Shown here piece after piece: positions 48,604 to 53,819 of a stretch of DNA of 64,000 nucleotides. Source of the DNA: Trichocoleus sp. FACHB-46. GTDB taxonomy: Bacteria; Cyanobacteriota; Cyanobacteriia; FACHB-46. The notes beneath the pieces were generated by a model. That model had not been told where the DNA came from. It worked only from the letters and a program-made list of their open reading frames with translations, and did not search any database. The stretch spans positions 744,001-808,000 of the forward strand of contig NZ_JACJOD010000006.1 in assembly GCF_014695385.1 (NCBI RefSeq), written 5' to 3'. Every line of letters begins with the position of its first letter. Position 1 is the stretch's first letter. The translations under genes and the position numbers were made by a program.

Positions 48604-48637
48604 AAAGCCCTCTGAAAGTTTAGTTTCAGAGGGCTTT
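48604..48637 (-). terminator. Original terminator of the tRNA-Phe transcript, now displaced
   Basis: A perfect 14-bp hairpin, AAAGCCCTCTGAAA against TTTCAGAGGGCTTT, with a 6-nt loop and T-runs on both sides. It lies just beyond the left 48-bp repeat, where the sequence downstream of an uninterrupted tRNA-Phe gene would be. The intact tRNA is now 5.1 kb away at the other end of the element. Confidence 0.7.
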
Positions 48638-48650
48638 TAGTTTCATCCGG

Positions 48651-48698
48651 TATGCCAGGAACGAGACTTGAACTCGTGACACGAGGATTTTCAGTCCT
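48651..48698. repeat. Left attachment-site repeat (tRNA-Phe 3' fragment)
   Basis: 48 bp identical to 53745-53792, comprising the acceptor 3' strand, T-arm, variable loop and the 3' anticodon arm of tRNA-Phe. The sequence beyond 48698 cannot complete a tRNA. Confidence 0.9.
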
Positions 48699-48741
48699 AG
48701 AATCTATAACTTCTGAAATTCTTGCTATGTAAGGGTTATAG

Positions 48742-48791
48742 GTTTATCGCGGTTTTATCTCAATTCAATTTATCGCAGTTTTATCGCAGTT
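48742..48791. repeat. TTATCGCAG iterons, left end
   Basis: Copies of TTATCGC(A/G)G: one at 48744, a degenerate TTTTATC, then two intact copies at about 48770-48789. The same motif clusters at 53632-53676 at the other end. They are probably integrase arm-binding sites. Confidence 0.6.
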
Positions 48792-48848
48792 ATGCTAGGT
48801 TTTGCTTGGTGGTACAGCTAATTCAAGCCACTGAGAGCAGAGGATAAA

Positions 48849-50042
48849 ATGCGACCAATCAACCCCAAAAACAACAATGGCAGCATCAAGCTTGAGTTTA
48901 GTTATGCGGGTAAGCGGCACTCGTTAGCACCTGGGGGTAAGTTTGACGATCCGATCGCATTGGGTAACGCGCAAAGAATCGCAGCTCAGATTTACAACGA
49001 TTGCCTTACTGGTAACTTCGATCCAACGCTATCGAAATACAAGCCAGCTACAGCACCGAACTTTAAAGGGAGAAGCGTTCAGGCAGTACAAGAAGATCTA
49101 GAAGCTGCTAGGGAAGCGTTGAAACTACGCTGTATCTCTTTAGGGTTATGGGATAAATACGTCGATTACAAACGTCCTAGTGTCTCCCCTAGTACGATCG
49201 CGAAGGATTACCAAAAGGTCAAAAACTATCTGCTTAAAGCTCCCAAGATGGGAGGTGCCAAGGAATTAATAAATTCCACAGATTTTCGCGACTGGCTCCT
49301 TAAGCAAACAACGCCAGCAGCAACTAAGAAGGTTATCACTCAAGTTTCAGCCTGCTGTGATTGGGCGATCGATGAAAAACTATTGAGAGAAAATCCCTTC
49401 TTGGGAATGGCAAAGAAAATCAAGCTGCCTAAATCAGCTAAAGCAAAGAAGCCAGAAGCATTTACGAGGGAGGAACAAGTCAGAATTATTGAAGCGTTCA
49501 AAACCAATCAATTTCGCTCTAAAGCTGATAGGTTTGGTCACTCCTGCTACGCTCCCTATGTAGAGTTCCTATTCGCTAGCGGTTGTAGACCATCTGAGGT
49601 ATTACCCTTGCAGTGGAAGCACATAAACCCCGATCTGAAGGTAATTAGGTTTACTCAAGCATTAGTAGAGGGTGAAGGCGGGCGGGTGTTGAAAGATGGG
49701 TTGAAGACGCAATCTGAAAGAGTGGTACCAACAAGTAAACGTATTCAAGCGTTATTGGAATCGATCAAGCCTGAAAACTGCAAGCCTGAACAGCTAGTTT
49801 TTCCTGCAATTGAAGGCGGTTATATTGATCATCACAACTTTTGCAATCGCCAGTGGAAGGCTGTTTTAGAAGGGCTGAAGATACCATACAGAAAGCCTTA
49901 TTCGACTAGACACTCTCTAATTACTGATGCCTTAGACTTAGGTATGGATGCTAAGGACGTATCTGCGTTAGTTGGTAATTCAGCAAAAATGATTTATGAG
50001 CATTATGCATCTCAGAAAAAAGGAATAACCCTACCTGAGTAG
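48849..50042 (+). CDS. Tyrosine-type site-specific integrase
   Basis: A 397-residue phage-type integrase. The N-terminus (1-65; GSIKLEFSYAGKRHSL) is an arm-binding domain of the DUF3596 type, followed by a SAM-like core-binding domain (about 90-190) and the catalytic domain. Catalytic residues: R247 in GCRPSEV, the TRHS box (R354, H355), and the nucleophile Tyr, most likely Y383 in MIYEHYA. It lies 150 bp inside the left repeat and reads into the element; iterons lie in its upstream region. It probably excises and inserts the element at tRNA-Phe. Confidence 0.93.
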   Translation: MRPINPKNNNGSIKLEFSYAGKRHSLAPGGKFDDPIALGNAQRIAAQIYNDCLTGNFDPTLSKYKPATAPNFKGRSVQAVQEDLEAAREALKLRCISLGLWDKYVDYKRPSVSPSTIAKDYQKVKNYLLKAPKMGGAKELINSTDFRDWLLKQTTPAATKKVITQVSACCDWAIDEKLLRENPFLGMAKKIKLPKSAKAKKPEAFTREEQVRIIEAFKTNQFRSKADRFGHSCYAPYVEFLFASGCRPSEVLPLQWKHINPDLKVIRFTQALVEGEGGRVLKDGLKTQSERVVPTSKRIQALLESIKPENCKPEQLVFPAIEGGYIDHHNFCNRQWKAVLEGLKIPYRKPYSTRHSLITDALDLGMDAKDVSALVGNSAKMIYEHYASQKKGITLPE

Positions 50043-50095
50043 AGCCAACCGTCGATAACGCCCTAAGTTGTCAAAGAATCAATTTTCCCGACCAT

Positions 50096-50230
50096 GGGGT
50101 TAGTCATTTATAGAAGTAAGTTAAACTTCTGAAGTTAAACTAGGTTGGAAATATGGGTAAAGGGTCATAAATCAGCTATGACCCTTTTGTTTTGAAACAG
50201 GTTAGATAACTCCACCTTATTGATTTGTCG
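50096..50230 (+). ncRNA. Twin structured element, copy A
   Basis: One of two diverged ~135-nt copies (other at 50330-50467). Shared order: GGGGTTA, CATTTAT, an AACTTC-T-GAAGTT dyad, a terminator-like hairpin (11-bp stem from 50159 to 50187 with loop AATCAGC, then TTTTGTTTT), and a tail with ACCTTATT..T.TGTCG. It lies 54 bp after the integrase stop. Whether it is a separate RNA or the integrase 3' end is open. Confidence 0.5.
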
Positions 50231-50329
50231 AGCGTAGTGCTTGAAAACGTCCGATCGGTTTTGTCTATTTAAAGCGTGCTGAACTTAAGTTACCGGGTGG
50301 AGTCGGTTCAGAAATTCTGCATGAGACGT

Positions 50330-50467
50330 GGGGTTAAGGCATTTATCAAACTAAGTTGAACTTCAGAAGTTAATCTTACTTACATAAATGCTTACAGGGT
50401 AGCCAATCACCAGCTACCCTTTTTTGTGTCAATACAGACTAGGTAGTTCTACCTTATTAATCTGTCG
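50330..50467 (+). ncRNA. Twin structured element, copy B
   Basis: Second copy. Its hairpin AGGGTAGC/GCTACCCT (50396-50420) has a loop containing AATCA, as in copy A, and is followed by TTTTTT. The stem bases differ from copy A on both sides in a compensating way, supporting a conserved RNA structure. It ends 10 bp before the stop of the KfrA-like gene on the other strand. Confidence 0.5.
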
Positions 50468-50477
50468 TGCCTTCTTA

Positions 50478-50942
50478 TTAAGGATTCGGAGCTAAATGAG
50501 AGACGATCGATTGAATATTGGGCTTTTCCTTAACAGCTTCCAGGAAAGCGGCTTTTAATTGCTCGTATTTCTTGTCTCGTTCTTCAAGCCTTGCTTTGAG
50601 GTCAGTAATTAGCAACATTGCTTCCTCCAGTTCTTTCCCTTGTTTATCTAGCGCTTCATCTTGCGATCGCACTCTGTCATCATTGAATCTGTTCTCTGCA
50701 ACTAATAAGGCTACATTCCAAAGATTTTCAGCCATCTCTCTGATTGGCTCTGGCAAAGGCTCTCTACGATTTTCGGCCCTTGCTATTTCCTCCTTGTAGT
50801 CCTCCCTAAACTCCTTCATATACTTAGTGACAGTGGTAAAAGAACATTTGGTAGCCTTCTGTACCAAGTCAACTGTGGGCCTCTTATTTTCACTTAGGAT
50901 CATGAGGGCTGCCCCATAGATTTTCTCTTTCGCTCCAGCCAT
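50478..50942 (-). CDS. KfrA-like DNA-binding coiled-coil protein
   Basis: A 154-residue protein with an N-terminal KfrA-type helix-turn-helix (about 1-60: IYGAALMILSENKRPTVDLV, then CSFTTVTKYMKEFRED) and a C-terminal coiled coil (about 95-140, KELEEAMLLITDLKARLEER). In plasmid biology KfrA proteins bind their own promoter and aid stability or segregation. Upstream lies a tight cluster of TGTAGT/ACTACA boxes, presumably its operator, so autoregulation is likely. It is the only minus-strand gene in the element that I consider certain. Shorter than plasmid KfrA (over 300 residues). Confidence 0.78.
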   Translation of the reverse strand: MAGAKEKIYGAALMILSENKRPTVDLVQKATKCSFTTVTKYMKEFREDYKEEIARAENRREPLPEPIREMAENLWNVALLVAENRFNDDRVRSQDEALDKQGKELEEAMLLITDLKARLEERDKKYEQLKAAFLEAVKEKPNIQSIVSHLAPNP

Positions 50943-50950
50943 AATAGAAG

Positions 50951-51030
50951 TGTAGTAAATATGTACTACTACACCTTACTACAGATTGCCTGGGCTATGT
51001 AGTGAGGTGTAGTCTTTACTTTTTACTACA
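50951..51030 (-). promoter_or_regulatory. Cluster of six TGTAGT/ACTACA boxes
   Basis: TGTAGT at 50951, 50998 and 51008, and ACTACA at 50968, 50978 and 51025. Six sites in 80 bp directly ahead of the KfrA-like start (50942) look like an operator array for autoregulation. Confidence 0.6.
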
Positions 51031-51117
51031 CTTGTACAGGTGCCCTAAAAGCCTATAAGTTTTTCAATTTTAAGACGTGTAGAAGTTCTAAGAAGAATGG
51101 GCATAACAGCTTCAGCG

Positions 51118-51294
51118 GTTGTATTCTGCGTAAAGCCTATAGGTTTCCCACTTTTGCTATCTGCTTTAAATGCGATTAATTCAGGCTCTCCATTTGTATC
51201 GCTCGCGCCTAGCCAAGGTGCAGTACGTGTCTTAGCAGTTGCATTCACGCACAAACCTAAAGGTTTCTGGCTTTTGCTGTACTCTATGAATGAA
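51118..51294. repeat. Two 57-bp units with 120-bp period in the element
   Basis: 51118-51174 and 51238-51294 are similar (CCTA.AGGTTTC...CTTTTGCT core, roughly 40 of 57 matches). Frames are open on both strands: the minus frame (51045-51254, and open further upstream) repeats SKSxKP(L/I)G(L/F)xxNxTA; the plus frame 51097-51300 repeats KPxGFxLLL. I cannot decide which strand, if any, is coding. Confidence 0.45.
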
Positions 51295-51397
51295 GCCTGA
51301 TAATTGAGTCTTTAGATAGCAGTAGAATGGAAACTCCTAGGACTATTCTTTCGCTGTAATGATTTGTCTAGGAAGCCATTGAGATAAACCTTGACCT

Positions 51398-52501
51398 ATG
51401 TCTCTGCAAGAAGAAATCGATAAAACAAGAAAAGAAATTCGAACAGATGGTTATTTGATGTCTGTTGGGGAATGGATTAGTCTTTACGAAAAAAATGAAA
51501 TTGATATTCATCCAGAGTTTCAAAGATTCTTTCGTTGGACAGAACATCAAAAATCAACTTTTATAGAATCAATCCTTCTTGGCATACCAATCCCACCAAT
51601 TTTTGTAAGTCAGAGAGATGATGGTATTTGGGATGTTGTAGATGGTCTCCAGAGGCTATCTACAATATATGAACTTGTTGGTATTTTTAAAGATGCAGAA
51701 GACGTACAAAGACCCCCTCTTGCTCTTCAGAAGACAAAGTATTTACCATCATTGGAAGGGAAGAAATGGGATGATCAAGAACACCCAAACAATTCTTTTA
51801 CCCAAGCACAGCGCTTATTGATTAAGAGGGCAAAAATCGCAGTTAGTATTATTGAAAAAGAAAGTGATGAAATGGCAAAATATGAGCTATTTCAGAGACT
51901 TAATACTGGAGGTTCAGCTGCTACACCTCAAGAAGTCAGAAATTGCATTCTTGTGATGTTGAATAGAGATCTACAACACTGGATGCGCGCACTGGCAGAT
52001 TATGAACCTTTTCAAAACTGTATTGCTTTAACCGATAGGCTCTATATTGAACAATATGATATGGAATTACTATTGCGATTTATTTCTCTATTTGATACCG
52101 ATAAAAAGGATCTTAAAGGCTTAGGTGATGTCGGGGCTTTCTTGACAGATAAGATGATTGAAATAGCTCAAAACGGGGATATAGACTATGAGTATTTAGA
52201 AAGAGCATTCAAAACGACTTTTGATGTTCTCAATGAAGCTATAGGTGATGATAGTTTCAAGAGATATATACCTGATCAAGATAGATTTATGGGTGGATTC
52301 CTATTATCTTCCTATGAAGTGGTCGCTCTAGGAATCGGATACCATCATAGAAACTTACCTCCTATTGAAGAAATACCTACTCGCATAAAAAGTGTTTGGT
52401 CATCTAAGTCTTACAAGAATTGGTCTGGCGGAGGTACGAACGCTGCAAGACGTTTACCTCGTCTTATCCCTTTTGGTAGAGAAATATTCGCCCCTTCATG
52501 A
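51398..52501 (+). CDS. DUF262-family protein
   Basis: A 367-residue DUF262 protein, ParB/sulfiredoxin-like superfamily, the type found as GmrS/GmrD in type IV restriction and in other defence modules. Residues D82-G-L-Q-R86 form the DGQQR-type motif and F165-x-x-x-N169 (FQRLNTGG) the second. The N-terminus (MSVGEWISLYEKNEIDIHPEFQRFFRWTE) is the typical lead-in. It is shorter than GmrSD fusions and lacks the HNH domain. Its stop codon overlaps the ATG of the HEPN gene (ATGA), so the two are translated together. No HIP1 octamer and an AT-rich composition mark it as foreign. Confidence 0.88.
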   Translation: MSLQEEIDKTRKEIRTDGYLMSVGEWISLYEKNEIDIHPEFQRFFRWTEHQKSTFIESILLGIPIPPIFVSQRDDGIWDVVDGLQRLSTIYELVGIFKDAEDVQRPPLALQKTKYLPSLEGKKWDDQEHPNNSFTQAQRLLIKRAKIAVSIIEKESDEMAKYELFQRLNTGGSAATPQEVRNCILVMLNRDLQHWMRALADYEPFQNCIALTDRLYIEQYDMELLLRFISLFDTDKKDLKGLGDVGAFLTDKMIEIAQNGDIDYEYLERAFKTTFDVLNEAIGDDSFKRYIPDQDRFMGGFLLSSYEVVALGIGYHHRNLPPIEEIPTRIKSVWSSKSYKNWSGGGTNAARRLPRLIPFGREIFAPS

Positions 52502-53154
52502 GTCTTCGAACTGCTGAACAATTAAGCGATAGACTTTCGACTGAATTGGCATGGCGGAAAAAGGAACTTTCTGAATTCAAGTCGTTGGTCGAAGCAAAAA
52601 GCACTTCACTTCAAAGGCATACTGTCTTAATTCGAAGTGGGATAGTAATTCTTTATGCTCATTGGGAAGGTTTCGTTAAGTCAGCATCAAACTATTATTT
52701 AGAGTTTGTTGCTATGCAGAAGCTTCGTTATGAGCAACTTTCTAGTAACTTTTTAGCTTTAGCCATGAAAACTAAGCTTAATGAAGCAAGGGAAACAAAT
52801 AAAGCATCGTTATATATACCTGTGTGTGATTTTTTTGTTGGCAACCTCCACCAACGATGCTCTTTGCCCTATAAAGATGTTATTTCTACCGGTTCTAATC
52901 TTTCATCGGAAATCATGAAGGAAATAACACACATTCTTGGATTGGATTTTTCACCTTACTCTACTAAATCTGTACTGATTGATACCAAGCTTTTAGGAGC
53001 ACGAAATAGCATTGCACACGGCAATTATGGGTCAATTGATAGAGAAGAATATATAGAACTACATACAGAAGTTATAGGTATGCTTAATGATTTTCGTAAC
53101 CAGATAGAAGTTGCTGCTATTAATAAAGACTTTATGCGAACTAAAAAAAACTAA
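52498..53154 (+). CDS. HEPN-domain ribonuclease-like protein (MAE_28990 type)
   Basis: A 218-residue all-helical protein with the HEPN ribonuclease motif R169-NSIA-H174 (RX4H) in GARNSIAHGNYG. The N-terminus (LSTELAWRKKELSEFKSLVE) and the LYAHWEGFVK segment near 53-62 match the MAE_28990/MAE_18760 HEPN family. HEPN proteins are RNases of toxin and abortive-infection systems. Its start overlaps the DUF262 stop (ATGA), indicating co-translation. Together they form a two-gene module with a probable RNA-cleaving effector and a DUF262 regulator or sensor. Active-site residues appear intact. A terminator follows at 53170. Confidence 0.85.
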   Translation: MSLRTAEQLSDRLSTELAWRKKELSEFKSLVEAKSTSLQRHTVLIRSGIVILYAHWEGFVKSASNYYLEFVAMQKLRYEQLSSNFLALAMKTKLNEARETNKASLYIPVCDFFVGNLHQRCSLPYKDVISTGSNLSSEIMKEITHILGLDFSPYSTKSVLIDTKLLGARNSIAHGNYGSIDREEYIELHTEVIGMLNDFRNQIEVAAINKDFMRTKKN

Positions 53155-53169
53155 ATCAATCGCCTTGTT

Positions 53170-53203
53170 ACCTTCAGATTTAATTGAATCAGGAAGGTTT
53201 TTT
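53170..53203 (+). terminator. Terminator of the DUF262-HEPN transcript
   Basis: CCTTC and GATT pair with AATC and GAAGG around a TAATTG loop, followed by TTTTTT. It begins 15 bp after the HEPN stop. Confidence 0.75.
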
Positions 53204-53746
53204 AATTGCTTATTTATCTTAAGTTTTTGCTTACTCTCAGTTTTTATTTCTTGTTTTACTTCGTATTCATTTCTTTTGCGATCGCTCTAGAAACCTTTCA
53301 CTCAAAAATGGCGATGCTAGACCAGATGGCTCAGATAGTACAAATAAACTATCTTGGCTATGGACTCGCTATGGACGGTGGTTATTCCCTTTCAACCCAA
53401 TATTGCTTGAAAAGTAAAACGCGTTCCGTAGGTAAATTGCAATCCTGCCCTAGCAAGCTTTATTTGCTTCTTGAGCACACTTCATGAGCTTTAAGCAGAC
53501 TATATGCCCCAATTAAGCTCAAAGGCGCTAGAGGTCGAAAACAAGGGTTTGAGTTTGTTCTTACAGTCCAGCCTGAGAGGTTAGGTGCCTCTATAGTTTA
53601 TAAGTACTATCGAATAAGGGCTTTAGGGGAACTGCGATAAACACTTATCGCAGTTTTATCGCAGATATCGCAGATAAAAAATTGAGTCCTAGTGTTTCCA
53701 ATTAGAAAAACGACTTAGGACTCACGCTAGATATAGAGTTTTGATA
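53204..53746. other. Right flank of the element
   Basis: A frame at 53206-53487 starts hydrophobic (MLIYLKFLLTLSFYFLF) but overlaps the terminator, lacks a ribosome site and turns low quality; I do not call it a gene. The remainder holds iterons at 53632-53676, and nothing else I can support. Confidence 0.4.
53632..53676. repeat. TTATCGCAG iterons, right end
   Basis: An inverted copy (CTGCGATAA at 53632-53640), two direct TTATCGCAG copies, and an ATATCGCAG copy. Counterpart of 48742-48791. Confidence 0.6.

Positions 53747-53819
<73 letters not shown>

Follow-up and report, generated by a model that had tools for sequence, protein, structure and literature searches.

The space between the convergent integrase and kfrA-like genes of a small integrative element in Trichocoleus sp. 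FACHB-46 holds an intergenic module of about 140 bp that has been duplicated and has since diverged, with a hairpin of the intrinsic-terminator type in each copy. Such hairpins are rare in the window—the whole 64-kb stretch of DNA that we analyzed—and both lie just past the integrase gene. The simplest and most likely reading is that an intergenic module carrying a terminator, along with a dyad of unassigned use, was duplicated. We consider it somewhat better than an even bet that, in this duplicated and diverged module, each hairpin terminates transcription from the integrase before it enters the kfrA-like gene.

What kind of element harbors these twins? It is a complete element of 5.1 kb (48651-53792), integrated in a tRNA-Phe gene and bounded by two identical 48-bp att repeats on the − strand. 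The repeat near the integrase (48651-48698) includes a 3′ fragment of tRNA-Phe, and the other (53745-53792) overlaps the intact tRNA-Phe gene called at 53747-53819. The G+C content of the element is about 0.35-0.44, as compared with about 0.48-0.56 in the flanks. The tyrosine integrase (397 aa) is encoded on the + strand at 48849-50042, and a 154-aa protein with a KfrA_N domain is encoded convergently on the − strand at 50478-50942. The other genes of the element encode a GmrSD_N protein, which matches the defense models NsnA and PD-T4-2_A (PADLOC), and a HEPN_MAE_28990 protein; this pair is likely the defense cargo. Three further sets of repeats lie in the element. Short direct repeats, TTTATCGCAG, occur near both of its ends (48744-48793 and 53645-53676) and are likely to be bound by the integrase as arm-type sites. 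Repeats of the GTGTAGTA type, in both orientations, lie upstream of the kfrA-like gene (50945-51036), where they probably constitute its autoregulatory operator. Imperfect repeats of the form AAAGCCTATARGTTT..TTTT are found at 51045-51275, the third of them (at about 51253) being weaker; read on the − strand, they give a repeated peptide motif, KPIGF, and this segment is possibly a gene for a small repeat protein.

The first-pass annotation of this DNA had described two copies of one element with a shared block order, placed between the integrase and the KfrA-like gene, and both the alignment and the gene map bear this out. The copies (50095-50232 and 50329-50469, + strand) are in direct orientation, with a start-to-start spacing of about 235 bp. 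A local alignment of 50095-50230 with 50329-50467 has 99 identical columns of 139 (about 70%) and a score of 109, whereas the maximum among 300 dinucleotide-shuffled pairs was 31. Both copies have the same series of blocks: GGGGTT, CATTTAT, AACTTC-W-GAAGTT, a hairpin plus T-run, and ACCTTATT..TGTCG. The similarity spans TGGGGTT to about TGTCGNGC and then ends sharply; on both sides, alignment scores of the flanks are no better than those of shuffles. Thus, the twins are discrete modules rather than what can still be recognized of a longer duplication.

Both twin hairpins have the features of an intrinsic terminator—a stable GC-containing stem, a short loop, and a T-run directly 3′ of the stem on the coding strand. 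In copy 1 (50159-50187) the hairpin is AAAGGGTCATA-AATCAGC-TATGACCCTTT followed by T-rich TTTTGTTTT, and in copy 2 (50396-50420) it is AGGGTAGC-CAATCACCA-GCTACCCT followed by TTTTTTGTG. A stringent scan of the 64-kb window (perfect stem of at least 7 pairs, loop size 3-10, T-rich tail) returned only three sites on the + strand, where random sequence gives zero or one: the two twin hairpins and a site at 48604-48637, just outside the element. The twin hairpins lie 117 and 354 nt past the integrase stop codon, and the next gene is convergent. Their T-run is present only on the + side; the − strand shows an A-run ahead of the stem. In their GC-rich stems of 8-11 pairs, loops of 7-9, 3′ T-runs, and placement after one gene and ahead of a convergent one, the twins resemble Rho-independent terminators in general; unlike plain terminators, they form part of a longer module that occurs twice and has a conserved palindrome upstream of the hairpin and a conserved stretch downstream. 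Rho is absent from cyanobacteria, and in the species studied a minority of transcription units end at canonical intrinsic terminators (PMC13289151).

Is the structure of the hairpin itself under selection? On the + strand, the four outer pairs of the stem are identical in both copies, while each of the four inner pairs has other bases on both sides of the stem. Pairing survives in three of these (CG/AT, AT/GC, and TA/CG), and the loop keeps AATCA in both copies. To this extent the covariation proposed in the first-pass annotation stands; the fourth inner pair is lost on the + strand, having changed from A-T to C.A. Read on the − strand, where the hairpin would be part of the kfrA-like gene's 3′ UTR, the stem keeps 10 pairs in both copies with four double changes, thanks to G-U pairing. 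The hairpin stands out among all the helices possible in both copies: its score was reached by 1 of 500 column shuffles on the + strand and by none of 500 on the − strand. Because shuffles rarely or never reach this score for two-sided change, selection probably acts on the hairpin structure, or did so until recently; the rarity of terminator-like sites in the window supports the same claim. The runner-up helix, which pairs TGGGGTT with AACTCCA/AGTTCTA, has 7 pairs and three one-sided changes. As 21 of 500 shuffles gave a second-best helix of that score, it is suggestive only. Convincing covariation is confined to the terminator stem in the two copies at hand, and covariation between two copies can argue for selection on a hairpin but cannot separate a regulatory RNA from a terminator.

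We propose the following history. An intergenic module of about 140 bp in the tRNA-Phe-integrated element would have been duplicated and would then have diverged. The GC-rich hairpin and T-run of each copy would end + strand transcription coming from the integrase before it could cross the convergent kfrA-like gene in antisense. Since a terminator requires pairing and no particular sequence, double changes in the stem are what one would expect. Terminator-like hairpins after the integrase thus explain the compensatory changes without invoking a functional RNA, and the covariation would reflect selection on the terminator.

How widespread is the module? A blastn search found no further copy in the host genome, in 388 genomes of its class, or among plasmids or phages. 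The best match elsewhere (83% over 52 bases, in L004) is short and in an unrelated place, and we judged it to be due to chance. The first-pass annotation had proposed searching genomes with a covariance model of both copies; such a model (R1) recovered no homologue from the 388-genome class sample or from related integrase loci, although the genome searches scored only the best few candidates per genome and might have overlooked highly divergent copies. DNA patterns were also run against IMG/VR, and the two with matches, when scored by the covariance model, gave at best 21.8 bits (E 0.2), which is at chance level. Related integrases are themselves common, occurring in 188 of the 388 sampled genomes (about half), and they adjoin tRNA-Phe, -Gly, and -Arg genes. 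Among the 20 related integrase loci examined, 19 have a tRNA gene within the stretch; the twin module and relatives of the KfrA gene are absent from all 20. The repeats that follow related integrases proved to be a CRISPR-like array, low-complexity sequence, or a further repeat family. In a congeneric genome (L040 / L115), an integrase of 46% identity adjoins tRNA-Arg, and a CRISPR-like array with the repeat GTTTCCAACTAATCCGATTTTGGTTAATCGGTAAAG lies about 1.1 kb downstream.

Several features sit uneasily with two + strand terminators. The conservation of the dyad (75%) and of the tail past the T-run (72%) is left unexplained, as is the need for two terminators, and the hairpin is slightly better supported on the − strand, which one would not expect of a + strand terminator. 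Could the twins then be small RNAs of the element, as first suggested? Each copy would be transcribed from its own + strand promoter near the GGGGTT block and end at the hairpin, yielding two siblings of about 90 nt that act on the element or the host. Bacterial tandem sibling RNAs are likewise two diverged neighboring copies with terminator-like 3′ ends, and the compensatory changes, the conserved AATCA loop, and folds better than those of shuffles (z = −2.2 and −2.8) point the same way. Most of the fold signal, however, comes from the terminator hairpin, the 5′ part with the dyad takes a different fold in each copy, and a conserved tail of about 36 nt (50197-50232 and 50434-50469) lies past the T-run, beyond the reach of a terminated RNA. 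A consensus scan of the + strand of 49900-51400, including the surroundings of 50096 and 50330, returned no sigma-70-like promoter, and nothing in Rfam came near gathering scores for the twins, although a new small RNA need not strictly match a family. With no promoter or homologue found, and with a conserved part that outruns the terminator, the twins differ from known sibling RNAs; we regard tandem small RNAs of the element as possible but unlikely. The failure to find homologues is one half of what the first-pass annotation itself named as grounds for refuting it, and none of this evidence makes the hairpins a new class of small RNA. A type I toxin of the Sib/Ibs kind was also considered and set aside, as no small frame has a start common to both copies. 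It is more doubtful still that a new family of structured RNAs, or of structured DNA sites, exists in small cyanobacterial elements integrated at tRNA genes and that the twins are the first of it to be seen. Its members would have a head formed by the palindrome, then the covarying hairpin, and finally a tail able to pair with the head by way of G-U-tolerant changes (TGGGGTT with AACTCCA/AGTTCTA).

The dyad and the tail invite two other explanations. The imperfect dyad lies at 50105-50155 in copy 1 (core AACTTCTGAAGTT at 50124-50136) and at 50339-50391 in copy 2 (53 nt, 79% self-complementary; core AACTTCAGAAGTT at 50359-50371). Its core, AACTTC-W-GAAGTT, does not covary, being invariant except for the central base, and the outer arms, CATTTAT..ATAAATG, pair fully in copy 2 only. 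Conserved in sequence while its RNA fold differs between copies, the dyad is more readily seen as a putative protein-binding site than as an RNA hairpin. Dyad and tail might accordingly be DNA sites that serve to maintain, excise, replicate, or transfer the element—an operator, a centromere-like site, or a packaging/transfer site—which the terminator merely adjoins. The repeated half-sites AAGTT/AACTT and the sharp module borders agree with this, as does a core that occurs twice in the 6.56-Mb genome, both times in the twins, where a base-count estimate expects roughly one occurrence. Yet related integrase loci have no such module. The TTTATCGCAG repeats, the likely integrase arm sites, are absent from the twins, and the operator-like GTGTAGTA-type sites cluster at 50950-51031, with none in the twins. 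In plasmid RA3, five repeats of 9 bp that lie across the kfrA promoter make up the KfrA operator (PMC7783346); the twins, too, are repeated DNA near a KfrA-type gene, but they lie behind it and do not have the GTGTAGTA repeats found in front. We hold such a DNA module to be rather improbable, a little more so than sibling RNAs. By eye, the twins have no terminal inverted repeats or target duplications, and there are no other copies, so an IS or MITE was rejected; an integron attC was also rejected, since the GTTRRRY-like boxes seen by eye in the dyad come with no integron integrase or cassette array. As for the tail, it may be what cargo exchange left twice of a duplicated coding 3′ end and its 3′ flank. 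Of its 11 differences between copies, 8 are transitions, the last six fall in one codon phase (P = 0.016), and a − strand frame, despite synonymous changes, gives ARQINKVEL in each copy. But the 39-aa frame has no relative with a convincing E-value in the 388 genomes, phages, or plasmids, the copies share no start codon, and copy 2 stops early. The pattern can be read either way, as G-U pairing with the GGGGTT block could also give it, and we think a coding remnant quite unlikely.

The duplicated terminator-bearing module thus remains our preferred reading, with a dyad that may bind a protein. If the head and tail blocks of the module are functional, they would offer a handle on how the few genes of very small cyanobacterial integrative elements, in which no transfer or replication genes are obvious, are insulated and controlled.
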